From an uncultured Flavobacteriaceae bacterium (GTDB taxonomy: Bacteria; Bacteroidota; Bacteroidia; Flavobacteriales; Flavobacteriaceae): DNA of 64,000 nt. The position numbers and the translations under genes were made by a program. Positions 35,592 to 64,000 of the stretch are shown piece after piece (position 1 is the stretch's first letter; the number at the start of each line of letters is the position of its first letter). Location: positions 62,001 through 126,000 of the forward strand of contig CANMSN010000007.1 of NCBI GenBank assembly GCA_947500585.1, written 5' to 3'. The notes beneath the pieces are model-generated. The model was not told where the DNA came from and ran no database searches. It saw nothing but the letters and a program-made list of their open reading frames with translations.

Positions 35592-35671
35592 AATGCAATA
35601 TTGAAATTTATTATTATTGTAACTTATTGGTATGCGTTTTTTTGAACAATAGAAAATTAAAATTAAATTTT

Positions 35672-37006
35672 ATGAAAATAACAGTAATAGGAACAGGCTA
35701 TGTCGGTTTAGTAAGCGGTACCTGTTTTGCGGAAATGGGAAATAAAGTAACCTGTATTGATGTAGATGAAAATAAGATAAATAAGTTAAAAGAAGGTGTT
35801 GTCCCTATTTATGAGCCTGGATTAGAATCTATGGTGTCGAGAAACCATGAAAGGAAAACATTGAAGTTTAGTACTAAACTTTCAGAGCATCTAGATGGAT
35901 GTGATGTTGCATTTATAGCTGTTGGTACTCCTATGGGAGATGATGGTTCTGCTGATTTAAAGTTTGTACTACAAGTAGCAAAAGAAATAGGAGATCACAT
36001 GTCTACCCCTCTTATTATTGTAGATAAATCAACTGTGCCAGTAGGTACAGCAGATAAAGTTAGAGCTACAATTAATGAAGCCTTAGAAAAACGAAATGTA
36101 AAAATTGATTTTGATGTGGTATCTAATCCCGAATTTTTAAAAGAAGGCGATGCGATTAACGATTTTATGAAGCCTGATCGTGTGGTAATTGGAGCCGATA
36201 AACCTGAAACAACTGAAAAAATGCGTAAGTTATACTCTACGTTTTTTAGAAGTGGTTCGGCGCGTCTAATTGCGATGGATGTACGATCAGCTGAAATGAC
36301 AAAATATGTTGCTAATGCTATGTTGGCAACAAAGATTTCATTTATGAACGAAGTAGCTAACATTTGCGAGCGTGTAGGTGCCGATGTTAACGATGTACGT
36401 ATAGGCATTGGTTCTGATAGCCGCATAGGTTATAGTTTTATTTATCCAGGTAGTGGTTATGGAGGATCATGTTTTCCTAAAGACGTGAAAGCACTTCATC
36501 GCACAGCTAAAGAAAATGGATATGATGCACGCTTGATATCAGCTGTAGAGGCAGTTAATGATACTCAAAAATTAGTTATTGCTAAAAAGGTTGTGAAACA
36601 TTTTGGAGAAGATTTATCAGGAAAGACTTTTGCTGTTTGGGGTTTAGCTTTTAAACCAGATACCGATGATATGCGAGAAGCACCTGCCATATATATAATT
36701 AAGGATTTGGTATCTCGGGGAGCAACTATAAAGGCCTATGATCCAAAGGCTATGCACGAAGCTCAAGAATTTTACCTAAAGGACGAGTCCAATGTTACAT
36801 ATTGTAATTCAAAATATGAGACGTTAACAGGGGCTGATGCGATGATTTTATTAACAGATTGGAAAGAGTTTAGAATTCCCGATTTTGAGGAGTTAAAAAC
36901 TCAATTAAATCAAGCTGTGATTTTTGATGGTAGAAATCAGTATGATGATAAAATAATGAAAGAGAGAGGCTTTAAGTATTATCAAATAGGAAAACAACCT
37001 TTGTAA
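35672..37006 (+). CDS. ugd: UDP-glucose 6-dehydrogenase
   Basis: A 444-residue cytoplasmic NAD-dependent enzyme that oxidises UDP-glucose to UDP-glucuronate, supplying an acidic sugar for the EPS. Motifs: [19 protein letters not shown] (2-20, NAD site), [31 protein letters not shown] (152-170), and [14 protein letters not shown] with catalytic Cys267. The frame is open to 35627, but [13 protein letters not shown] at 35672 is the family's usual start. Close relatives include GDP-mannose dehydrogenases; the overall sequence favours Ugd. It is the only uronate-forming enzyme recognised in the window. Confidence 0.93.
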
Positions 37007-49919: not shown

Positions 49920-51371
49920 ATGCTATTTAACTCAATAGACTTTGCCATTTTTTTACCAATAGTGTTTATTCTTTATTGGTTCGTAACAAGCAATAATTTA
50001 AAATTCCAAAATTTATTATTATTAGTTGCAAGTTATTTGTTTTATGGTTGGTGGGATTGGAAGTTTTTATCCTTAATCCTTTTTAGTACGATAATAGATT
50101 ATTACATAGGATGCAGTCTCCAAAAGGAAGTTAATAATTCAAAAAGAAAAATGTTATTATGGGTTAGTATATCAGTAAATTTGGGATTTCTGGGATTCTT
50201 TAAATATTATAATTTTTTTGTAGACAATTTTATTGCTGCTTTTTCTTTTTTTGGGTCAGAAATAAAACCAAATACACTTAATATTATATTGCCAGTTGGG
50301 ATTAGTTTTTATACGTTTCAAACCCTAAGCTATACTATTGATGTCTATAGAGAAAAACTTAAACCTACTGATGATTTTATTGTTTTTGCTGCTTTCGTAA
50401 GTTTCTTTCCTCAATTGGTAGCTGGTCCAATTGAAAGAGCAGCGCATCTCCTTCCTCAGTTTTATATTAAAAGAAAGTTCGATTACAGTAAAGCAATTGA
50501 CGGGATGCGTCAAATACTTTGGGGCTTATTTAAAAAAATTGTAATAGCTGATAACTGTGCTGTTTTCGCTAATGATATATTTAATAATTATCAAGACTAT
50601 TCTGGCAGTACATTAATTTTAGGGGCTTTGTTTTTTACATTTCAAATTTATTGTGATTTTTCTGGATATTCTGATATTGCCATTGGTACGTCACGTTTGT
50701 TTGGTTTTGATTTAATGAAAAACTTTTCCTTTCCTTATTTTTCAAGAGATATTGCTGAATTTTGGAGACGTTGGCATATATCACTTTCTACTTGGTTTAG
50801 AGATTATTTATATATTCCTTTGGGAGGCAGCAGAGGTGGTATTTGGATGAAAACACGAAATACATTTATTATTTTTATAGTAAGTGGTTTTTGGCATGGT
50901 GCCAATTGGACATTTATAGTTTGGGGGGCTTTAAATGCGATTTACTTCCTCCCACTTTTACTAACTAATAACAATCGTAATAATTTAGATGTTATAGCCA
51001 AGGGTAAAATATTCCCTAGTTTTCGTGAAACCTACCAAATGCTTTTAACTTTTTCACTAACAGTGCTTGCTTGGATATTTTTTAGAGCAGAAAACATCCA
51101 TCATGCTCTAAGTTATATTGCAAATATAGGGAATAGATCATTGTTTAGTGTGCCTAGTTTTGATACTATGAAACCAATAAATTTATTAATAGTGCCTTTA
51201 ATTTTCTTCTTTTTTTTAATAGAATGGTTTGGCAGAGATTCTGAATTTGGAATGCAATTTATTGGTTTGAAATGGAATAGGGTTTTTAGGTGGTCGTTAT
51301 ATTTGGGCGTTGTTATTTGTATTTTTATTTTTTCGAGTCAAGAACAAGCTTTTATATATTTTCAATTTTAA
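49920..51371 (+). CDS. MBOAT family O-acyltransferase (AlgI-like)
   Basis: A 483-residue integral membrane enzyme with about ten hydrophobic segments that passes acyl groups across the inner membrane for polymer O-acylation. Hallmarks: LPVGISFYTFQTLSYTIDVY, AGPIERAAHLLPQF, FWRRWHISLSTWFRDYLYIP and SGFWHGANWTFIVWG with the catalytic His. Alginate AlgI has the same pattern. It is followed after 4 nt by an SGNH-type protein, recalling the AlgI-AlgJ/AlgX pairing. Confidence 0.93.
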   Translation: MLFNSIDFAIFLPIVFILYWFVTSNNLKFQNLLLLVASYLFYGWWDWKFLSLILFSTIIDYYIGCSLQKEVNNSKRKMLLWVSISVNLGFLGFFKYYNFFVDNFIAAFSFFGSEIKPNTLNIILPVGISFYTFQTLSYTIDVYREKLKPTDDFIVFAAFVSFFPQLVAGPIERAAHLLPQFYIKRKFDYSKAIDGMRQILWGLFKKIVIADNCAVFANDIFNNYQDYSGSTLILGALFFTFQIYCDFSGYSDIAIGTSRLFGFDLMKNFSFPYFSRDIAEFWRRWHISLSTWFRDYLYIPLGGSRGGIWMKTRNTFIIFIVSGFWHGANWTFIVWGALNAIYFLPLLLTNNNRNNLDVIAKGKIFPSFRETYQMLLTFSLTVLAWIFFRAENIHHALSYIANIGNRSLFSVPSFDTMKPINLLIVPLIFFFFLIEWFGRDSEFGMQFIGLKWNRVFRWSLYLGVVICIFIFSSQEQAFIYFQF

Positions 51372-52379: not shown

Positions 52380-53417
52380 ATGAGTAAATCAAAAAGAATT
52401 TCCAATCTTGACCTATTCAGATTTTTTGCAATTTTTCTAGTTGTATATTTCCATTTATCCCAAATGTTTTTGTCTCAATATTTTTTTTCATACCGATTTT
52501 TCAAAGTAGGAGCATTAGGTGTTGAGCTTTTTTTCGTATTAAGCGGATTCTTGGTAGCTGGTTTATATTATAAAGTTAAAAAGGAAAAAATTAATTTACG
52601 TTTGTTTTGGTTACAGCGATTTTTAAGAACTTATCCACCCTATCTGGCTGCCTTAATAGTGTCTTTTTTAATGGTATATTTTTTTAGAAATGAAAAATTC
52701 GATTTTGGATATTTAGTTTTTTTACAAAATTTTTACGACAAAATTCTTTTTTTTAAGGTGTCTTGGTCTTTATGTGTAGAGGAACATTTTTATTTATTAT
52801 TTGTTGTATTTGCATTAATTACTATGGGTTTGTCAAAAGTAAGAATAATGACTGCATGGATTATTATTTGTTTAGTTCCTTTGGTTCTTAGGTTTGTTTT
52901 GGGATATAATAACTATGAATTAGGTGGGTTTTATAAGTCGGCTTCAATTTTTAGAATAGACGGAATAGCTATAGGTGCGTTTTTTGCTTATATAATAAAT
53001 AATTATACAATAAAATATAAAGGGAAATTCATTAATAATATGTTATTGTTAATAGTTTTGATTTCAATTGGACTATGGATTAGTGGTGAGCCAAGTTATT
53101 TAAAGTATACAGTAGGTTATTTTTTGTTTGTACTAAATGCTGCTTTGTTAATGGTATCACTATATTTCTCTTCTCCTGTCAAGATTGGAGAAACCTATTT
53201 TGTGAAACAAATAGCTCTCATGGCTTATTCAATATACTTGACACATCCTTGGGTTCTTAATTTTTTTGATATTCTTCAAAAAAAGTTAAACATTAACAAT
53301 TTCATTGCAGCTATAATTTCATTAATTAGTATTTTGATTCTAGGATATACATTTTATCTTATTATTGAAAAGCCAACAATAGTGATGAGGAATAACTTGT
53401 TGAATAACAAAAAATAG
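52380..53417 (+). CDS. Acyltransferase 3 family protein (OafA-like)
   Basis: A 345-residue polytopic enzyme with about ten hydrophobic segments. RISNLDLFRFFAIFLVVYFHLS holds the conserved Arg and His of the family, and KVGALGVELFFVLSGFLVAGL the second block. SWSLCVEEHFYLLF and a late LTHPWVLN also fit. Such enzymes O-acetylate surface glycans using cytoplasmic acetyl-CoA. It is the last gene of the plus-strand EPS locus, 92 nt after the SGNH gene, and converges on the beta-helix protein gene. Confidence 0.9.
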   Translation: MSKSKRISNLDLFRFFAIFLVVYFHLSQMFLSQYFFSYRFFKVGALGVELFFVLSGFLVAGLYYKVKKEKINLRLFWLQRFLRTYPPYLAALIVSFLMVYFFRNEKFDFGYLVFLQNFYDKILFFKVSWSLCVEEHFYLLFVVFALITMGLSKVRIMTAWIIICLVPLVLRFVLGYNNYELGGFYKSASIFRIDGIAIGAFFAYIINNYTIKYKGKFINNMLLLIVLISIGLWISGEPSYLKYTVGYFLFVLNAALLMVSLYFSSPVKIGETYFVKQIALMAYSIYLTHPWVLNFFDILQKKLNINNFIAAIISLISILILGYTFYLIIEKPTIVMRNNLLNNKK

Positions 53418-53538: not shown

Positions 53539-56500
53539 CTACTGCTTAACTAATAATTGTGGGTAGGCATCCGCAGCACCATCTATAATAGTTCTAGGGG
53601 TGCTGTTAACAAAATCTACCATTACCTTACTTAAATCTGATCTATTTAAAACTTCATTATTTATTAAAGTACCTTGAAATATTGCTGGTACAGTAGAATT
53701 TATAATATTATTCCATAAATAAGCCCTTTTATTTGTTACTTGTAATGAAACTCCTGTATCTAAGAAATTACAACCCTCAGCATGGAAATTGGCACTTACT
53801 ACATTTGATACGCCATTTCCGCTAAAATCACAGCCATAAAAACTAACAACAGCATTACCGCCTATTACAGCTGCTCCTGTATGATTTGTAAAAGTGCTAT
53901 TAGATACGTATAAACCATTAGACTGAGAACAATTAAGAGCTATATCATTACCATCGAATTTACAATCTATCCAGGCATTAAGATTGTTTGCGCGATTTGC
54001 AATCATATCTAAGCCAATACCACAGTTGATAAACTGGCATCTGTAAAATACTGTTTTGTCCACATACATACACGTAGGGTAAAGTGTATTACCAGGTTGT
54101 GTATAGTCTATGTCTTGAAAAATACCTTTGTTGCAATTAACAAAGTTTAAATTAGCAAAGAATGTATTATCTACGGCATAAAATTTATTTAAGTGTATAC
54201 CGTAGTTTTGGTCGCGAAATACAAGATTTTTCCACGGAATATTACTCATTTGCATAAAAACATTTTCCTTACCAATAGGGTTAACTTCAAGACCTGCTGA
54301 ACCACCTTGTAGTGTTAAGTAAGCTAAAGTGTAGTTTACACCTGTTAAATTAGATCCTCCGGTTAAATCATCCTGTGCTAACACTAGAGGGAAATCATCT
54401 GTTATACCAACAATAGCTGTTTTACCCGTTCCTTTCCCTATTATCCCTTGTTTATTTGTAAGAACTAAAGGTTGAGATATGTAATAAATACCCGCATCAA
54501 GTTCAGCAATTCCGTTAGTATCAATTAAAGCTTGTATAGCTGCACTTTGGTCTGCTTGCCCTGTTCTGTTAGTAGCCCAGTTAGCACCTGTTGGATTTGG
54601 TAGCGTTGGTAAATTAGGTTTAGCTATAGGGGTATATTCTGTACCTTGAATCATAGCAGTAAAATCAGCTGCATCTTGCCCAGTAATTGGTGGATTTGTA
54701 GCAGTACCGTTTAAAGTTAAATCTGACGTATTATTATGGTGTGCTTGTAATGTTAATGTATTGGCTTCATTAGCGTTTGCAATCGTATTTCTAATATTTA
54801 TACCTAAAAATTTACTTCCAGGCCTAATAATATTGCCACCATTACCTGAGCTATTTAGGTATTTTCTGTTCATTAAAATTTCATCGGCTTCAAGGTCAAT
54901 ATCAGGTGCACCTGTAAATGCAAAACCTGTAGTGTTAAACATTTTAAGTTTACCTACATTTCTAACATAAAAAGCTGCTCTACCTGTACCATCAACTTGA
55001 CTCCAATATTCAGAATCCGCACCAAGAAGGGTATGGTTATCTAAGGTGTTGTACTCTGTAGTATTGTATTGCGAGGTTAATAAAACTCTTGATAGTTCAA
55101 TATTTCCGTAACTTGGTGTTGTTATATTTCCAATCATTGTAACATGATTATCAATAGACTGAGAAAACACTCTTTTAAAAATATTATTTCTAAAATAACC
55201 AGAACTACTACAATCAAATGTGGTTCTTCCTCTTGATATATCAACAAATTCAGAATCTTCTAATGTGCAATTTATACAAGTTAAAAGGCAATTATAAACA
55301 CTTAGTAATTTCACATTTGAAGTAACGCCTCCAGGAGCAAAATCTATATCAGCATTAATACCTTCAATACGAATGTTTGTAGAACCACCTGGTATAGTGA
55401 TGTTACCTACAATAGTTCCGTTGTTTTGAGGGTAACCATATAAGCGCATATTATCAGATAGCGTTAAAGTGCCACTTCCAGAATAATCACCTGCACCTAA
55501 TCGAACTGCACCATCAGTATTTAAAACACTTTGAATGGTTGATGCGTTTTCAGGGGCAACATAGGTTGCTGCGAAATAATCAATTTCTACAGGCATATTG
55601 TCGGTTAGCGAAACCGAATTAGTAGTAAAGGTTTCGACATTACTATCTGAACTTTCATTATCAGCATCATCTATAGCACGAATAGTTAAATTATAATTAG
55701 TTTCTGGAGTTAAACCTGTGATCAGGTAATTGGTTATATTCCCAGTTGAAGCGACTAATAAATTCCCACTATTATAAACTCTGTAATTAGTTACACCCAC
55801 ATTATCGGTAGCAGCAGTCCAACTTAAATCAGCTGTTGTCTGAGTAATGTTAGATGCAACTAAATTAAGAGGGTTTGTCGGGGATGTTGTATCAGGTTCT
55901 AAAGTAATAAAAACTTCATTATTACTATCACCAGATTCATTATTTGCCGCATCTATAGCTCTGATAGTTAAATTATAAGCTGTATTTGCATTTAATCCTG
56001 TAAGTGTATAACTGGTTACATTACCAGTAGAAGCTATTAATAGATTACCATTATTATAAATTCTATAGTTTGTTACAGCCACATTATCTGTAGCAGGTGT
56101 CCAAGATAAATCAACGGTAGTTTGGGTAATATTGCTTGCTACTAGATTAAGAGGAATTGAAGGATTTTCCGTATCAGGAGTTACTATTGCTGCAGTGTTA
56201 AAATTGGCATTATTACTATCATTAGATTCATTACCAGCAGCATCCAGAGCTCTAATAGTTAAATTATAAGCTGTATTTGCATTTAATCCTGTAAGTGTAT
56301 AACTGGTTACATTTCCAGTAGAAGCTACTAATAAATTACCATTATTATAAATTCTATAGTTTGTTACAGCCACATTATCTGTAGCAGGTGTCCAAGATAA
56401 ATCAACGGTAGTTTGGGTAATATTGCTTGCTACTAGATTAAGAGGAATTGAAGGATTTTCGGTGTCAGGAGTTACTATAGCTGCAGTGTTAAAATTGGCA

Positions 56501-57717
56501 TTATTACTATCTCCAGATTCATTATTTGCCGCATCTATAGCTCTGATAGTTAAATTATAAGCTGTATTTGCATTTAATCCTGTAAGTATATAACTGGTTA
56601 CATTACCAGTAGAAGCTATTAATAGATTACCATTATTATAAATTCTATAGTTTGTTACAGCCACATTATCTGTAGCAGGTGTCCAAGATAAATCAACGGT
56701 AGTTTGGGTAATATTGCTTGCTACTAGATTAAGAGGAATTGAAGGATTTTCCGTATCAGGAGTTACTATTGCTGCAGTGTTAAAATTGGCATTATTACTA
56801 TCATTAGATTCATTACCAGCAGCATCCAGAGCTCTAATAGTTAAATTATAAGCTGTATTTGCATTTAATCCTGTAAGCATATAACTGGTTACATTACCAG
56901 TAGAAGCTATTAATAGATTACCATTATTATAAATTCTATAGTTTGTTACAGCCACATTATCTGTAGCAGGTGTCCAAGATAAATCAACGGTAGTTTGGGT
57001 AATATTGCTTGCTACTAGATTAAGAGGAATTGAAGGATTTTCGGTGTCAGGAGTTACTATAGCTGCAGTGTTAAAATTGGCATTATTACTATCTCCAGAT
57101 TCATTATTTGCCGCATCTATAGCTCTGATAGTTAAATTATAAGCTGTATTTGCATTTAATCCTGTAAGTGTATAACTGGTTACATTTCCAGTAGAAGCTA
57201 CTAATAAATTACCATTATTATAAATTCTATAGTTTGTTACAGCCACATTATCTGTAGCAGGTGTCCAAGATAAATCAACGGTAGTTTGGGTAATATTGCT
57301 TGCTACTAGATTAAGAGGAATTGAAGGATTTTCGGTGTCAGGAGTTACTATAGCTGCAGTGTTAAAATTGGCATTATTACTATCTCCAGATTCATTATTT
57401 GCCGCATCTATAGCTCTGATAGTTAAATTATAAGCTGTATTTGCATTTAATCCTGTAAGTGTATAACTGGTTACATTACCAGTAGAAGCTATTAATAGAT
57501 TACCATTATTATAAATTCTATAGTTTGTTACAGCCACATTATCTGTAGCAGGTGTCCAAGATAAATCAACGGTAGTTTGGGTAATATTGCTTGCTACTAG
57601 ATTAAGAGGTATTGAAGGGTTTTCGGTATCAGGTACTGGTGCTTTATCAAGTGGGTAGTAGTTTTGCGAAAAAACTACACTTGAAAAAAATAAAAAAAGA
57701 ATAATTATATTTTTCAT
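53539..57717 (-). CDS. Secreted multi-Fn3 protein with C-terminal beta-helix region
   Basis: 1392 residues. A signal peptide (MKNIIILFLFFSSVVFSQ) is followed by seven fibronectin type III domains: six nearly identical 97-residue units from residue 30 to about 611 and one diverged unit to about 705. The rest is two parallel beta-helix stretches, the first from ENASTIQSVLNTDGAVRLGAG, the second from RTGQADQSAAIQALIDTNG to GTGKTAIVG, which resembles pectate-lyase-superfamily proteins. No T9SS C-terminal domain is seen (end AYPQLLVKQ). Its start overlaps the upstream stop (ATGA). A uronan lyase, epimerase or glycan-binding role is possible but unproven. Confidence 0.88.
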   Translation of the reverse strand: MKNIIILFLFFSSVVFSQNYYPLDKAPVPDTENPSIPLNLVASNITQTTVDLSWTPATDNVAVTNYRIYNNGNLLIASTGNVTSYTLTGLNANTAYNLTIRAIDAANNESGDSNNANFNTAAIVTPDTENPSIPLNLVASNITQTTVDLSWTPATDNVAVTNYRIYNNGNLLVASTGNVTSYTLTGLNANTAYNLTIRAIDAANNESGDSNNANFNTAAIVTPDTENPSIPLNLVASNITQTTVDLSWTPATDNVAVTNYRIYNNGNLLIASTGNVTSYMLTGLNANTAYNLTIRALDAAGNESNDSNNANFNTAAIVTPDTENPSIPLNLVASNITQTTVDLSWTPATDNVAVTNYRIYNNGNLLIASTGNVTSYILTGLNANTAYNLTIRAIDAANNESGDSNNANFNTAAIVTPDTENPSIPLNLVASNITQTTVDLSWTPATDNVAVTNYRIYNNGNLLVASTGNVTSYTLTGLNANTAYNLTIRALDAAGNESNDSNNANFNTAAIVTPDTENPSIPLNLVASNITQTTVDLSWTPATDNVAVTNYRIYNNGNLLIASTGNVTSYTLTGLNANTAYNLTIRAIDAANNESGDSNNEVFITLEPDTTSPTNPLNLVASNITQTTADLSWTAATDNVGVTNYRVYNSGNLLVASTGNITNYLITGLTPETNYNLTIRAIDDADNESSDSNVETFTTNSVSLTDNMPVEIDYFAATYVAPENASTIQSVLNTDGAVRLGAGDYSGSGTLTLSDNMRLYGYPQNNGTIVGNITIPGGSTNIRIEGINADIDFAPGGVTSNVKLLSVYNCLLTCINCTLEDSEFVDISRGRTTFDCSSSGYFRNNIFKRVFSQSIDNHVTMIGNITTPSYGNIELSRVLLTSQYNTTEYNTLDNHTLLGADSEYWSQVDGTGRAAFYVRNVGKLKMFNTTGFAFTGAPDIDLEADEILMNRKYLNSSGNGGNIIRPGSKFLGINIRNTIANANEANTLTLQAHHNNTSDLTLNGTATNPPITGQDAADFTAMIQGTEYTPIAKPNLPTLPNPTGANWATNRTGQADQSAAIQALIDTNGIAELDAGIYYISQPLVLTNKQGIIGKGTGKTAIVGITDDFPLVLAQDDLTGGSNLTGVNYTLAYLTLQGGSAGLEVNPIGKENVFMQMSNIPWKNLVFRDQNYGIHLNKFYAVDNTFFANLNFVNCNKGIFQDIDYTQPGNTLYPTCMYVDKTVFYRCQFINCGIGLDMIANRANNLNAWIDCKFDGNDIALNCSQSNGLYVSNSTFTNHTGAAVIGGNAVVSFYGCDFSGNGVSNVVSANFHAEGCNFLDTGVSLQVTNKRAYLWNNIINSTVPAIFQGTLINNEVLNRSDLSKVMVDFVNSTPRTIIDGAADAYPQLLVKQ
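55885..57630 (-). repeat. Six tandem 291-bp Fn3-coding repeats
   Basis: Units run from 57630 downward in 291-bp steps with long identical stretches. Two variants exist. Type A (D-A-A-N-N-E-S-G-D) fills units 1, 2, 4 and 6; type B (D-A-A-G-N-E-S-N-D) fills units 3 and 5. The alternation in units 3-6 suggests that a 582-bp two-unit block was duplicated. A seventh, diverged unit follows (about 55600-55884). Confidence 0.92.
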
Positions 57718-58454
57718 TGTCCAGAAATTATATAAGCATTTAAACCAGATTTTCTCAGTAGTCCAAACCTAACGTTTCCACTATTACTATTAAATTGTGC
57801 ACTTCCCGCATTTGTATAGTTTAGAGTTACACCAGGACTAGCATTAACTGTTAAAATTGCTCCGTTGTGGGCTTCAAGATTAACTATATCTCCAATTTCC
57901 ATAGCTGTAAAATTAGATGTAATGGTTAAATTAGATGAAGCAGTACAAGCTATAGTATTGTTTACATCGTTACTAGTTATATTTCTTGTAGATGATAATG
58001 GGATTATTTCTGCTTTATATGGTTCTGTAGTGATTGAACCTGTAAGACTTTCAGCAGTTTTGGCATGTAAAGCATATGGCACACTTAAAAGCTGACTTAC
58101 TCCAATAATATTATAATTTGTCCCACCAGTTACATCTACTTGGGTTTCGACAAAATATTGACTTTGGCCCCAAGGAATACTACTAAAATTTCCTTGGATT
58201 ATATCTCCTGTACCAATTTCTAAGGAAATTAAACCATTACTGTTTGTTTTTACTAAGTGGTTTTCTTCATAAATTGTATTATCCCCAGTTGTACCTTGAA
58301 GAATAAGTATTTTAATACTAACCTCAGAATCAATAACTAAATTATTGTCACTAGATCTAATTATAGCTTGATAGCTAATTTTTTCTGGTGATTGAGCTAA
58401 AAGAGTTAGTGTTGAGCCAATGTAAATTAATAGAGTAAAAATATATTTCATCAT
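57714..58454 (-). CDS. Secreted protein with conserved Bacteroidota fibre-like N-terminal module
   Basis: 246 residues. Signal peptide MMKYIFTLLIYIGSTLTLLAQ. The first 120 mature residues (KISYQAIIRSSDNNLVID, VSIKILILQGTTGDNTIYEE, GLISLEIGTG, SQLLSVPYALHAKTAE) match a module very common at the N-terminus of Bacteroidota secreted and tail-fibre-like proteins. The C-terminal half is a beta-rich stretch ending GNVRFGLLRKSGLNAYII. No sorting domain. It is the middle gene of a three-gene operon, 1 nt after the T9SS protein and overlapping the Fn3 gene by 4 nt, so the three products probably act together. Confidence 0.85.
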   Translation of the reverse strand: MMKYIFTLLIYIGSTLTLLAQSPEKISYQAIIRSSDNNLVIDSEVSIKILILQGTTGDNTIYEENHLVKTNSNGLISLEIGTGDIIQGNFSSIPWGQSQYFVETQVDVTGGTNYNIIGVSQLLSVPYALHAKTAESLTGSITTEPYKAEIIPLSSTRNITSNDVNNTIACTASSNLTITSNFTAMEIGDIVNLEAHNGAILTVNASPGVTLNYTNAGSAQFNSNSGNVRFGLLRKSGLNAYIISGQ

Positions 58455-58455
58455 T

Positions 58456-58995
58456 TCAATTTTTTATAATTTTAAATGTTTTTAATAGTTTTTCTTTAGC
58501 AAAAACTTGAAGAATGTATATTGAAGTACTTAAATTAGTTAAATCTATAGTCGAATTTTGATTTAAAATAGTACTCTTGTGGAGTAACTTTCCTTGATAA
58601 TTATATAAATGATAAGAATTTAATTGATTTGTAAAGTCGAAACCTTCAGTAGTTAAAGTAACATAATCGGTTGTTGGGTTTGGATGTACTATTGCTTTTA
58701 CATCAGTTTCCATTATGTCATCTGGTACATCAGAATCTTCGTTATTTGTGTTTTCTTCGTTATCGTTTTTAATACCATGCTGTATACCTTTTGTAATCTG
58801 ATAATTATTGTCTTCTATTTGAGAGAAAAAAACTTGACCAATAGAATAAGAAATGGATCCAGAATTTCCAGACAAATCATTACCAGTGGTATTTATGGAA
58901 TTGATTAAATCATTACTCTGACTAAAACTCTTTAAAGATAAGAGTAGTAATAGCAAGAAGATAGGTGAAATTTTTTTTGGGGAGGTAGGATTCAC
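58456..58995 (-). CDS. Small secreted protein with T9SS type A sorting domain
   Basis: About 179 residues from a GTG at 58995. This start is chosen because it places a proper signal peptide (SPKKISPIFLLLLLLSLKSFSQ) at the N-terminus; the ATG at 59094 would bury it behind 33 odd residues. The mature part (SGSISYSIGQVFFSQ, QITKGIQHG) resembles a short module common before sorting domains in this phylum. An acidic linker (about 105-120) leads to the type A domain: HPNPTTDYVTLTTEG, YHLYNYQGKLLHKS, LSTSIYILQVF. It is the first gene of the operon with the fibre-like and Fn3/beta-helix proteins. Confidence 0.82.
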   Translation of the reverse strand: MNPTSPKKISPIFLLLLLLSLKSFSQSNDLINSINTTGNDLSGNSGSISYSIGQVFFSQIEDNNYQITKGIQHGIKNDNEENTNNEDSDVPDDIMETDVKAIVHPNPTTDYVTLTTEGFDFTNQLNSYHLYNYQGKLLHKSTILNQNSTIDLTNLSTSIYILQVFAKEKLLKTFKIIKN

Positions 58996-59094
58996 AGTTA
59001 TTTTGGGATTTAAATATTTTTCAATTTCTTTGACAATAGTATTTAAAAATAAAATAAAAACGACAAAACACTGGTTTTTTTCGATAAACTGCAA

Positions 59095-59569: not shown

Positions 59570-61621
59570 TTATTTTTTGTAAAACTTACTTAATTTTAGC
59601 TTTACCATGGGTTTTAAATGCTTTATGTTATCCTCAAGTTTTTTCTTAGTTATTAAATTTCTAATAAGAGACTTCATGTTGCGTTGAGGATCTAGTTTAA
59701 GTAAAATTTGAGGTAGAGTTTTACTACGGGAGTATGATGCGTCAAACCATTGGGTAAAATGACCTCTTTTTTTCCTACTAGAAAACATATACTGCAAAGC
59801 TTTTAAAACACTAAACGATGGCGCAAATTTTCTGATATTTAATTCTTCAATATCACCACTGTAGTATAAGTCACCAAGTATTGAAGCTACTTCAGGAGTC
59901 GCATCTTCTAGCATTTCGATAAGAATGGGTGTAATGGCTTCAAAAGAGGTTTCAATTTTTGGGTTTGAAGCGAGTGATTTACTAAGTTTTTGAGAAAAAT
60001 TCTGGATACCTTGTTTATAACTTTCTACTCCCCATTTTTCTATATGTATTGGGGGGTCTTTTAGTACTGGCTTGAAATGTCCATTTTCGTCTTTTTCGTA
60101 GCTAATGGTTGTCCCATGATTACATTGCAAAAGTAGTTCTAGAATAGGTCCGATTCCGGGTTTGTTTGAAGGAAACATATAGGCTGGTACTTTTCTGTTT
60201 TCTGGTAATGTGTAAGCACTAAAATGAGTTACAGCAAAATAGTAGGAAGTCAACTTGAAATTAGGTTTTTTACTTTTTAAAATCTTATGTATAGTATCCT
60301 GAAGAGTTCCTCTCCATCCGATATCGACAAAGCCCACCCTTTCATTCTTAAGTAGGCCTTCTTGCTCAAAATAGCCAATAACAGTTTTGCGATAGATAGC
60401 TGCCTCTGATTCAATTTTGGTTTTTAAGCTAGAATTATTAAGTAAGGCATTTTTCAAAAGGTTTATATGATTTAGTGTGAGTCGATTATCAAATCCGTGA
60501 CTGACTATTGATTTTTTCAAATCAGAATCTAGATAATTAATTAGTATATCTACCTCGAAATGTAACCGTTTTGCAACACGATTAAAAGTAATTATATTAT
60601 CCATTTCTTGAAAAATCCAATCAAAGCATTGCGTTGTTACACGGAAAATTGATGCAAAATATGTAGCCTGTCGGGAAGTATAAAGATAGTGTATCTCTAC
60701 ATCGAACTGAAAACAAGTAATAATCTCCTCAGCTATAATTTTCAAAAGATAACCATCACGTGCCAGAAAATAAATGTGTTTAATTCCTTCACTAACAGCT
60801 TGTTTGAGTAAATTGTAAACAAACCCATAAAACATGGGTCCCATGAAACTTGCTCCGAGACGATAAGAAGGCTTTAAATTATACCCTTCAAGTCTAGTTT
60901 GCTTACTTGCACCTACAACAAGCTGAAGGAAAGTATTCTGTTCTTCTTTGAAGTAACTTTTCTCAACTTGACTCAGGATAGAATCTTTATAAAAAACAGA
61001 TTTGACTCCTGAACGTTCTGCCATAATACAATCACTGTGGAAGTTATCCCCTTTGTGGATCAACGATAATGGTATGATTTTCTGATCATTACAAACATGG
61101 CGATAAAGCGTACCATCAGATTTACGTATCTTTAGTTCAGATGAAAGGTAAAGTGGTAAGGAACTCAAACGAGGATTAGCCTTTTCAAGCATTTGTAAGA
61201 TTATTGTCTTACTAAGATACATATCTGAAATTAGAAGCACTTTATTTCCCAATTCTAGAAGCTCAATTACTTTAGAAACATTTTCTGGAATAGAATAACA
61301 ATTCTCGATTTCAAGTGACTCTTCCAGTTCCTGAAGTTGAAAGAGTTGCTTATCTTTTATCTCAGGATGTTCTGAACCTAACGCTGAATATATTTCTTCA
61401 AGAGTAATTTCTGGATAAGACGATTTTTCATGAGCTAATTTTTGTGCTCTTATCCTTAAGTTTACAAATTCATCTATAAAATAAATTGGGAATTCTAAAT
61501 CTCTAATTTCTTTAAGCTTTTCTCTTAATGACACAAAGATACCTTTGTCATTAGCAAATTTTCTGGAAATTAAAGTGTCAAAAATGTCAAATGAATAGTT
61601 GGTCATATTCTTAAATTTCAT
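59570..61621 (-). CDS. Large HAD-superfamily protein of polysaccharide loci (COG5610-like)
   Basis: 683 residues. The N-terminal 220 residues form a HAD-type phosphatase: motif I SFDIFDTLISR with D12 and D15, motif II-like VLLISDMYLS, and IHKGDNFHSDCIMAERSGV as motif IV. The remaining 460 residues are a second region with YFLARDGYLLKIIAEE, HYLYTSRQATYFAS and RVGFVDIGWRGTLQDTIHK, as in COG5610 proteins found in capsule and O-antigen loci. No signal peptide, so cytoplasmic. The substrate is unknown. It stands alone between terminators, 188 nt after fcl. ATG at 61606 is an alternative start. Confidence 0.82.
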   Translation of the reverse strand: MKFKNMTNYSFDIFDTLISRKFANDKGIFVSLREKLKEIRDLEFPIYFIDEFVNLRIRAQKLAHEKSSYPEITLEEIYSALGSEHPEIKDKQLFQLQELEESLEIENCYSIPENVSKVIELLELGNKVLLISDMYLSKTIILQMLEKANPRLSSLPLYLSSELKIRKSDGTLYRHVCNDQKIIPLSLIHKGDNFHSDCIMAERSGVKSVFYKDSILSQVEKSYFKEEQNTFLQLVVGASKQTRLEGYNLKPSYRLGASFMGPMFYGFVYNLLKQAVSEGIKHIYFLARDGYLLKIIAEEIITCFQFDVEIHYLYTSRQATYFASIFRVTTQCFDWIFQEMDNIITFNRVAKRLHFEVDILINYLDSDLKKSIVSHGFDNRLTLNHINLLKNALLNNSSLKTKIESEAAIYRKTVIGYFEQEGLLKNERVGFVDIGWRGTLQDTIHKILKSKKPNFKLTSYYFAVTHFSAYTLPENRKVPAYMFPSNKPGIGPILELLLQCNHGTTISYEKDENGHFKPVLKDPPIHIEKWGVESYKQGIQNFSQKLSKSLASNPKIETSFEAITPILIEMLEDATPEVASILGDLYYSGDIEELNIRKFAPSFSVLKALQYMFSSRKKRGHFTQWFDASYSRSKTLPQILLKLDPQRNMKSLIRNLITKKKLEDNIKHLKPMVKLKLSKFYKK

Positions 61622-61809: not shown

Positions 61810-62889
61810 TTAACTTAAATACCAGTTAAAAACTTTATTAATTCCTTCTTCTAAAGAAATTTTATGTTTCCAGCCTAGGGCATTAAGTTTAGATGGGTCT
61901 GTGAGCTTTTTCATGGTACCATCTGGTTTATTAATATTGAAATATAAATGACCTTCAAATCCTATCTTATCTTTTATTAATATTGCTAAATCTTTAATTG
62001 ATATATCTACTCCAGTACCTATATTAATATGTGTGTTGCGAATCTCTTCAGTATTTGTTATGCAATCATCAAAGCTTCTGTTTTCCATTAAAAACACACA
62101 AGCATCTGCCATATCTTCACTCCATAAAAATTCACGCATAGGTTTTCCAGTTCCCCAAACTTCCAATTGTACTCGATTATCAATTTTTTTAATACCATAC
62201 TTATCAAGTATAGTTGTAATTTTTATTTCTGAAGCATTACCATCTACACCTTCAATATGCATTTTGTTTAGGTCTTGTCTAATAAAATCCCAGTTATTTT
62301 CGTCTAAAGACTTTCCTAAAATCATTTTTCTAATTAATGCTGGAAGCACATGAGATTTTTCTAAATCAAAATTATCATTTGGACCATATAAGTTAGTAGG
62401 CATTACAGATATAAAGTTAGTACCATATTGTAAATTATAACTTTCACACATTTTTATACCTGCTATTTTTGCTATGGCATAAGGTTCGTTTGTGTATTCT
62501 AAAACATCAGTAAGCAAATAATCCTCTTTCATAGGTTGAGGACAGTTTTTTGGATAGATACATGTACTACCTAGAAACATAAGTTTTTTTACACCATTTA
62601 AATAACTCTGATGTATAACATTATTCTGAATGCATAAGTTCTCATATATAAAATCAGCACGATAGGTATTGTTTGCAATAATACCACCAACTTTTGCCGC
62701 AGCTAAAAAAACAAACTCAGGCTTTTCTTTAACAAAAAACTCTGCAACAGCTTTTGCATCTGTTAAGTCTAATTGGCTATGAGTTCTAGTAACAAAATTA
62801 TTATATCCTTTAGACTCTAAATTTTTTATAATGGCACTTCCAACTAAACCCCTATGACCAGCTATATATATTTTGGATTTTTTTTCCAT
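61810..62889 (-). CDS. fcl: GDP-L-fucose synthase
   Basis: A 359-residue short-chain dehydrogenase (epimerase-reductase) that converts GDP-4-keto-6-deoxymannose to GDP-L-fucose. Motifs: YIAGHRGLVGSAIIKNLES (NADPH site), AAAKVGGIIANNTYRADFI, STCIYPKNCPQPMKED, and the catalytic NEPYAIAKIAG (Y-x3-K). The length exceeds the E. coli enzyme by about 40 residues, with an insertion near 205-245, as is usual in Bacteroidota. It lies 59 nt downstream of gmd; together they supply L-fucose, probably to the EPS. Confidence 0.94.
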   Translation of the reverse strand: MEKKSKIYIAGHRGLVGSAIIKNLESKGYNNFVTRTHSQLDLTDAKAVAEFFVKEKPEFVFLAAAKVGGIIANNTYRADFIYENLCIQNNVIHQSYLNGVKKLMFLGSTCIYPKNCPQPMKEDYLLTDVLEYTNEPYAIAKIAGIKMCESYNLQYGTNFISVMPTNLYGPNDNFDLEKSHVLPALIRKMILGKSLDENNWDFIRQDLNKMHIEGVDGNASEIKITTILDKYGIKKIDNRVQLEVWGTGKPMREFLWSEDMADACVFLMENRSFDDCITNTEEIRNTHINIGTGVDISIKDLAILIKDKIGFEGHLYFNINKPDGTMKKLTDPSKLNALGWKHKISLEEGINKVFNWYLS

Positions 62890-62948
62890 GATAAGATTAG
62901 ACTAACAAGTTGATGTTCTTTTTTTATTCAATTAAACTTTTACAAAAT

Positions 62949-64000
62949 TTATTCAGCTTGCTTTAAAATTTCATGTCCAGCTTTTATCAAATCAACGTCT
63001 TTCTTCATTAGTCTAACATCAGATTCCATCATATCTTTAATCAAGTTTTCTAAATCGTATTCAGGAACCCAACCTAATTTTTCTTTTGCTTTTGTCGGGT
63101 CACCAATTAATAAATCTACTTCTGTTGGACGGAAATAAGACGGATCAACTGATAAAACTTCTTTACCTATTTCTACTTGAAATTCTTTGTTATTACAATT
63201 GGTTACAAAAGCTTTCTCATCTACCCCTTTACCTCTAAACTCTAGTTCGATTCCAACCTCATTAAAAGCCATACGAACAAAATCACGAACAGTTGTCGTT
63301 ACACCTGTAGCAATTACCCAATCTTCAGCTTTTTCAGCTTGTAAAATCATCCACATCATGCGAACATAATCTTTGGCATGCCCCCAATCTCGTTGTGCTT
63401 CTAAATTTCCTAAAAATATTTTTTCTTGTAAACCCAATGCTATTTTCGCTACAGCTCGAGTTATTTTTCTTGTCACAAAAGTTTCTCCTCTTCTTGGGGA
63501 TTCATGATTAAATAAAATACCGTTACAAGCATACATGCCATAAGCTTCTCGATAGTTTTTGGTTATCCAAAATCCATAAATTTTAGCTACACCATAAGGA
63601 GAACGAGGATAAAAAGGAGAGTTTTCATCATAAAAACCTCTTTCATTTTTATTCTCAGGTAATCCACCATACAACTCAGAAGTAGAGGCTTGATAGATTC
63701 TTGTTTTCTTTTCTAAACCTAAAATCCTTACTGCTTCTAATATTCTTAAAGTTCCCAACCCATCAACACTACCAACGTATTCTGGCATATCAAAAGAAAC
63801 CTTAACATGCGACATTGCTCCCAGATTATAAATTTCATCTGGCTGAGATTCTTGAATAATACGAGTTAAATTCATAGAATCTGTTAAATCTCCATAATGT
63901 AATTTCAATCTTTGATTTGGATCATGTGGATCTTGATATAAATGATCAATTCTATTCGTATTAAATAGAGATGATCTTCTTTTAATCCCATGCACCATAT
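62949..64000 (-). CDS. gmd: GDP-mannose 4,6-dehydratase (5' end beyond the window)
   Basis: At least 349 residues. The reading frame runs off the right edge, and the N-terminal glycine-rich NADP site (normally about 25 residues before [12 protein letters not shown]) is missing only because of the window limit. Seen: [44 protein letters not shown], and [14 protein letters not shown] (Y-x3-K), with [14 protein letters not shown] later. It makes GDP-4-keto-6-deoxymannose, the substrate of Fcl encoded next. Confidence 0.95.

Follow-up and report, generated by a model that had tools for sequence, protein, structure and literature searches.

The window analyzed here, a 64,000-nucleotide stretch of DNA from an uncultured Flavobacteriaceae bacterium, carries three adjacent minus-strand genes, in the order gene 1, gene 2 and gene 3, that form a cassette beside a locus for exopolysaccharide (EPS) synthesis. 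Gene 1 (58456-59094, 212 residues) encodes a small protein with a type A sorting tail of the type IX secretion system (T9SS; TIGR04183, 37.5 bits with a cut-off of 23) and is the proposed surface base. Gene 2 (57714-58454), which overlaps gene 3 by 4 nucleotides, encodes the putative adaptor, in which profile, hhalign and BLASTP comparisons distinguish an N-terminal domain like that of mosaic adhesive trimer (MAT) fibers and a phage adaptor domain at the C-terminus. Gene 3 (53539-57717, an open reading frame, or ORF, of 1392 residues that starts with ATG) encodes the cargo: a signal peptide presumed by eye only, giving the protein a secreted look, a short tag, seven Fn3 repeats (Pfam) and a modeled, tailspike-type double beta-helix.

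The Fn3 repeats of gene 3 lie at about residues 33-702 (55612-57621), where Pfam finds seven fn3 stretches (E 7.6e-83), and they number 0-10 copies in relatives. The N-terminal part of the protein is Fn3 by Pfam, no search having been aimed at a P22-type head domain. In the DNA the array is a tandem repeat with a period of 291 bp, 6.6 copies and 92% matches, and because repeats 1-6 are 88-99% identical the array appears to have expanded recently. Elsewhere in the same genome, two ORFs of ~850 residues (G000:C1:416967-420853, loci L002-L005) contain relatives of the gene 3 Fn3 domains.

Searches of Pfam, PHROGs, NCBIfam and PDB sequences with residues 706-1392 (53542-55602), the spike, yielded nothing usable, and homologues in phages were found by profile scans. 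An AlphaFold2 model of this part, built from 15 alignment rows, has a mean predicted local distance difference test (pLDDT) of 89.8 and a predicted template modeling score (pTM) of 0.92, and its strands are arranged as expected for two beta-helices in tandem, with a helix at the start of each. The best structural match by VIA-align is ORF18 of Geobacillus virus E2 (Z 18.5, 294 residues, root mean square deviation (rmsd) 3.1), followed by many phage tailspikes, AlgE, RbmB and WceF at Z about 14-17; rows at Z 15-18.5 cover 239-300 residues at rmsd 2.7-3.6, mostly over residues 345-680 of the model, its C-terminal half. Foldseek placed GH55 and PL6 enzymes on top, yet with template modeling (TM) scores of 0.2-0.3 and rmsd 16-20. 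Viral protein models gave 76 matches at E<=0.001, including phage pectate-lyase or tailspike proteins and beta-helix proteins of giant viruses, with TM to the query of at most about 0.3 among the best 50 of the 76. The preliminary description of this DNA had read gene 3 as seven Fn3 domains followed by a C-terminal beta-helix and had suggested a structure prediction of the latter; the Pfam matches and the confident model of a beta-helix fold agree with it on both counts.

R843, D901, E903, D1107, R1168, D1183, N1184, D1220, K1221 and R1242 are invariant across all 24 aligned bacterial and phage spikes. Those from D1107 to R1242 fall within a candidate binding or active face at residues 1107-1245 (53983-54399), assigned from the coil register: right-alignment of the coils by their strand puts D1183, D1220 and N1245 at one place on successive coils, and because they stack in this way one polar face on the spike is suggested. 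The DPHD motif is the signature of mannuronan epimerases. AlgE/AlgG, RbmB and the PL6 lyases are like the modeled spike in their beta-helix fold, and differ in that the spike has neither a sequence profile match nor DPHD. Membership of gene 3 in the AlgE/AlgG family, to which the preliminary description had likened it specifically, was rejected on the absence of DPHD and of any Pfam or NCBIfam family match.

A T9SS tail (TIGR04183) is present in 25 of 25 gene 1 proteins picked beside an adaptor gene, and the genome itself encodes SprA and yields 60 T9SS-tail matches, the last of the 60 under the cut-off. By Pfam and NCBIfam, no sorting tail is found in gene 3, as had been stated at the outset, nor in gene 2, its direct neighbor; TIGR04183 matched 0 of 15 spike domains. 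The missing tail had been called odd beside a T9SS-tailed operon partner. Such a partner does exist, two genes upstream in the form of gene 1, the adjacent gene 2 having none; and because gene 1 bears the tail in 25/25 cassettes, its absence from gene 3 is the usual state of affairs.

The N-terminal domain of gene 2, at about residues 21-135 (58050-58394), matches the profile NF053851 (Bdello_MAT_N) with 48.7 bits, under the curated cut-off of 60, and the same profile matches at E<=0.001 in 13 of 13 cassette members. Among 30 MAT-N loci examined, 11 have by eye a T9SS-tail-like ORF upstream (L071-L077, L079, L081, L085, L090), four of these being the present cassette, and in the remaining loci the upstream position holds a porin-like gene, another fiber, an unrelated ORF or none, so a strict pairing of gene 1 with gene 2 is limited to the cassettes examined. 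A second MAT-N-like fiber gene in the same genome (G000:C14:27809-28467, L035) again has a small T9SS-tailed protein upstream. In Zobellia uliginosa DSM 2061 (L018, 9142-9881) a frameshift divides gene 2 in two, which reflects either an assembly error or a broken gene.

The C-terminal domain of gene 2 (residues 147-246; 57717-58016) is, by hhalign and BLASTP, a homologue of a phage domain that lies directly 5' of the spike in the phage contigs L048 and L049. Set against the terminal part of the ORF that immediately precedes the spike in these contigs, it scores 99.2 with hhalign (0-100 scale; E 1.7e-19), and BLASTP gives 41 and 43% over 96 columns, the 43% match with E 9e-19. Its model aligns with the capsid spike of phage Pa223 (Z 11.4, 92 residues, rmsd 2.1) and with residues 78-178 of CBA120 TSP4 (Z 9.6, 90 residues, rmsd 2.6), and viral models gave 174 matches at E<=0.001, with mostly phage proteins among the best 50. 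A six-frame search placed the adaptor domain in two of nine phage contigs (L048, L049). The phage adaptor used as query matched its own contig alone, and the phage module A5, which lies within the upstream ORFs of L036 and L037, scores 0.1 with hhalign against the gene 2 domain, no detectable relationship.

Profile scans found spike homologues in nine IMG/VR phage contigs, representing about seven lineages once near-copies are merged. The spike covers query residues 6-687 in L036 and 2-687 in L037, is a partial gene in L040, L045 and L050, and ends without the conserved last residues in L048 and L049. The contigs tested bear terminase (L036, L044, the L037/L047 contig, L049), portal (L036, L040, L049), major head protein (L046) and endolysin (L048) genes, and the phage protein would, from gene position and fold, be a virion spike. 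The phage evidence comes from IMG/VR contigs alone, since tblastn with the window protein found no match among INPHARED phages or PLSDB plasmids, nor did INPHARED yield one with two phage spike copies as queries. In a tree of 24 spikes, bacteria and phages are interleaved with five label changes, at least four of them forced by well-supported branches, and the window spike groups with L048 and L049 (support 99/97). Shuffling the labels gave counts as low in 75 of 500 cases, so phages do not cluster strongly on the tree; this fits an interleaving of bacterial and phage spikes, without giving a direction of transfer. In the fiber regions of L046 (4289-6847, 6849-9137, 9151-11469, 11500-12183) and L047 (12465-15095), several ORFs, one of them a spike, begin, by eye, with Sec-like signal peptides, which is odd for virion proteins.

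In a scan of genome contigs, 14 loci with a spike turned up, every one of them from Flavobacteriaceae; because the scan uses short peptide patterns, further loci may be missed. Flavobacterium saccharophilum DSM 1811 is one carrier of the cassette. The adaptor domain is present in 13 of the 14, and across the phylum it occurred in 5 of 395 genomes, all five of Flavobacteriaceae and three of them additional to those described here. What follows the adaptor gene varies. In nine of 15 genomes of the family with an adaptor it is something other than the spike: six genomes have the spike as cargo, three a pectate-lyase-like protein (all without a Pfam match) and five a propeller-like protein, and in the remaining one the cargo is a polysaccharide lyase of PF14099 (E 3e-39). 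The propeller-like group was drawn by alignment (29-37%), with NHL under the cut-off in two of the five and one member, at L132, placed by its near-identical ends; one of the five has an SGNH esterase domain (PF13472, 44.3 bits, cut-off 32.9) with GNSI and DGLHP motifs. At L127 the pectate-lyase-like cargo shares 36% identity over 632 residues (E 1e-120) with an ORF of phage contig L048 that matches phrog_11548 ('pectate lyase'), ends in the adaptor domain and has the spike next downstream, so that two heads and an adaptor are adjacent in this phage. No viral relative was found with profiles of the two cargo types, pectate-lyase-like and propeller-like, and the phage link of the former depends, by sequence comparison, on L048 alone. 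An ORF directly upstream of the phage spike (L047 4416-6980, equivalent to L037 2364-4928) weakly matches an esterase (phrog_3341, E 0.0049), an echo of the esterase of a bacterial cargo.

Cargoes of all these classes share an N-terminal tag. In gene 3 it reads QNYYPLD (residues 18-24; 57646-57666), after the presumed signal peptide, and it is proposed to be a docking peptide. The pattern Q[NST][YF]x[YP], composed after the sequences had been viewed, is found in 25 of 26 cargoes. Of 608 other ORFs one matches it, and of the 97 whose start resembles a signal peptide, as judged by a crude rule, none does. The sole cargo without the tag, at L012, is also the sole locus without an adaptor gene. 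Since loci L126-L136 were chosen for the presence of an adaptor, a free test of the association between tag and adaptor is limited to the 14 spike-selected loci, of which 13 have both and one has neither. At L129 (5856-7037, G231) a glycosyltransferase-like gene stands between the adaptor and cargo genes, and the cargo has kept its tag. At L133 (4246-7046, G080) gene 2 is a 650-residue variant that contains internal repeats, ends in a phage-like C-terminus and may be an intermediate form; its cargo is the PF14099 lyase, and transposase-like genes adjoin.

Linkage to EPS synthesis had been proposed from the window alone, and it recurs at related loci. With 16 proteins of the window's EPS region as queries, 2-6 EPS homologues lie within about 10 kb in 13 of 14 spike loci and 4-7 in 10 of 11 further cassette loci, which makes 23 of the 25 loci tested, whereas two or more occurred in 0 of 20 control stretches (20 kb each, taken at fixed steps from three genomes that each have a cassette). 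The linkage is seen in Flavobacterium, Pareuzebyella (one of two copies), Pricia, Zobellia, Algibacter and Tamlana; several of the Flavobacterium spike loci are not independent because they occupy the same syntenic place.

We read the three genes as a modular surface-display cassette that holds a phage-type, polysaccharide-active tailspike on the cell, where it acts on the cell's own EPS, and put the probability of this reading at roughly 0.6. What the analysis shows directly is the gene order, the T9SS tail, the common domains and tag, the differing cargoes, the phage homology and the EPS linkage. In the proposed mechanism, the T9SS would export the gene 1 product and fix it on the surface, the MAT-like N-terminal domain of gene 2 would dock onto this base, and the C-terminal domain of gene 2, homologous to the domain that precedes the spike in phages, would receive the tag of gene 3. 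The Fn3 repeats would serve as a spacer, and the beta-helix end would bind, and probably cleave or modify, the EPS of the neighboring locus. Adaptor and tag would stay constant and the cargo be swapped, as in phage receptor-binding modules, presumably tracking changes in EPS structure. Docking, trimer formation, catalysis, substrate and the direction of gene transfer are what we infer here. The earlier suggestion of an EPS-modifying enzyme or scaffold is supported by the EPS synteny, the modeled fold in common with tailspikes and EPS enzymes, and the enzyme families that two relatives have as their cargo; the phage relatives of gene 3, the phage adaptor in gene 2 and the varying cargo go beyond it.

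Several observations weigh against this reading. The model of the whole gene 2 protein is weak (pLDDT 71, pTM 0.48). XD1 of CBA120 TSP4 is described as gp9-like and apparently a spacer, other tailspikes being bound by XD2 and XD3 (PMC8825819); the modeled match of the gene 2 domain is to the XD1 segment and not to XD2 or XD3, and for this reason the label 'adaptor' is drawn from the gene pairing and the tag, and not from the fold match alone. The domain is found in two of the six phage contigs that have sequence upstream of the spike, and 11 of the 26 loci in the tag comparison had been selected for it. Genes 2 and 3 have no T9SS tails, and the reading gives no account of how their products cross the outer membrane. 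Both spike (7 of 397 genomes of the family, one of them weak at E 5.9e-4) and adaptor (15 of 397) are rare traits. In L014, whose spike comes with adaptor and tag, the 22 kb contain no homologue of the EPS proteins used as queries, and the same test was negative for L133. The search for a catalytic Asp/Lys/Arg set, a check that the preliminary description had proposed, came out in part: an Asp/Lys/Arg set is invariant in 24/24 spikes, and no known catalytic signature turned up in sequence profiles or a motif check. Finally, the beta-helix fold is also used by binding proteins.

The main rival sees in the displayed spike a lectin that binds EPS uncut and retains it as a capsule. A T9SS base and an Fn3 stalk of variable length would suit a tether, but two other cargoes in the same slot belong to enzyme families (the SGNH esterase and the PF14099 lyase) and the spike has its invariant Asp/Lys/Arg set, and we consider this account unlikely. 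The sharing of spike, adaptor domain and pectate-lyase-like protein between bacteria and phages, with four or more label changes on the tree that suggest repeated exchange, would suit an anti-phage role, in which the spike strips or masks the EPS receptor of phages with a related spike or blocks such phages; EPS processing is nevertheless the simpler account of the EPS linkage and the enzyme cargoes, and a defensive role seems improbable. Slightly less probable again is a foraging enzyme that degrades foreign, e.g. algal, polysaccharide as food. Many Flavobacteriaceae are generally known to secrete such enzymes, and the modeled fold resembles that of uronan lyases; the EPS-synthesis homologues flanking 23 of 25 loci argue otherwise.

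Among known systems, the closest precedent by analogy for a spike at an EPS locus is WceF of Pantoea stewartii, a stewartan hydrolase that likewise is an exported beta-helix protein, folds like a tailspike and has its gene in an EPS cluster (PMC7949094). Its structure (PDB 6tgf) matches the modeled spike with Z 15.0 over 239 residues at rmsd 2.9. WceF is described as a single protein with a Tat signal and a P22-type head domain (PMC7949094), whereas the present cassette has three genes, a T9SS-tailed partner, a separate adaptor, a tag and varying cargo. Phages are reported to swap tailspikes on conserved coupling domains (PMC11414711), and in branched tailspike complexes (CBA120 TSP1-4, the T4 gp9/gp10 domains) domains of one protein hold other, exchangeable spikes (PMC8825819, PMC11414711). 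These complexes have a baseplate as their base; the cassette lies at a bacterial EPS locus and has a MAT-like/T9SS base. The MAT fibers of Bdellovibrio are similar in the gene 2 N-terminal domain, through the weak NF053851 match, and differ in that gene 2 is short, ends in the adaptor domain, leaves the cargo to a separate gene and scores under the family cut-off. The MAT N-terminal domain is presumed to bind a surface element, described as not yet established (PMC10769870), for which gene 1 is a candidate. A literature search, with subscription journals outside its scope, found among the listed titles and beginnings of abstracts no description of a three-gene cassette with a shared adaptor, a tag and several cargo classes.

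A wider reading, tentative and somewhat short of even odds, is that the cassette is a phage-derived 'tool holder' of the Flavobacteriaceae: an adaptor and tag shared with phages, set on a MAT-like/T9SS base, whose EPS-editing heads (spike, pectate-lyase-like, esterase-propeller, lyase) would be exchanged as a cassette and traded with phages that attack the same EPS. If so, gene 1 would be the missing surface partner of MAT-type N-terminal domains, at least in Flavobacteriaceae, and could be what anchors MAT-type fibers. Host EPS loci and phages would share one set of polysaccharide-active heads, the part that couples head to holder included, and such sharing could guide the assignment of phage spikes to the bacterial slimes on which they act and provide a source of EPS-editing enzymes.

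The EPS locus itself occupies 27323-53417 on the plus strand and encodes, by Pfam, a sugar transferase, a Wzc-like kinase, a UDP-glucose/GDP-mannose dehydrogenase, glycosyltransferases, and pyruvyl- and acyltransferases; an MBOAT gene (49920-51371) and an acyltransferase-3 gene (52380-53417), both on the plus strand, were named by eye. The dehydrogenase (35627-37006, plus strand) had been called a UDP-glucose dehydrogenase and taken as a sign of glucuronate in the polymer. Its family is confirmed; Pfam cannot separate the UDP-glucose and GDP-mannose enzymes, and glucuronate is at most a candidate constituent of the polymer. Upstream of the cassette on the same strand (61810-63998) lie an fcl-like gene (61810-62889, epimerase family by Pfam) and a gmd-like gene (62949-63998, by eye), homologues of which adjoin the cassette in several relatives as well. 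The neighbors of the cassette in the window are mostly EPS genes by Pfam, the window as a whole not having been scanned for phage genes. Between the fcl-like gene and the cassette (59570-61621) is a gene for a 683-residue protein without a Pfam match, the start of which looks HAD-like by eye.

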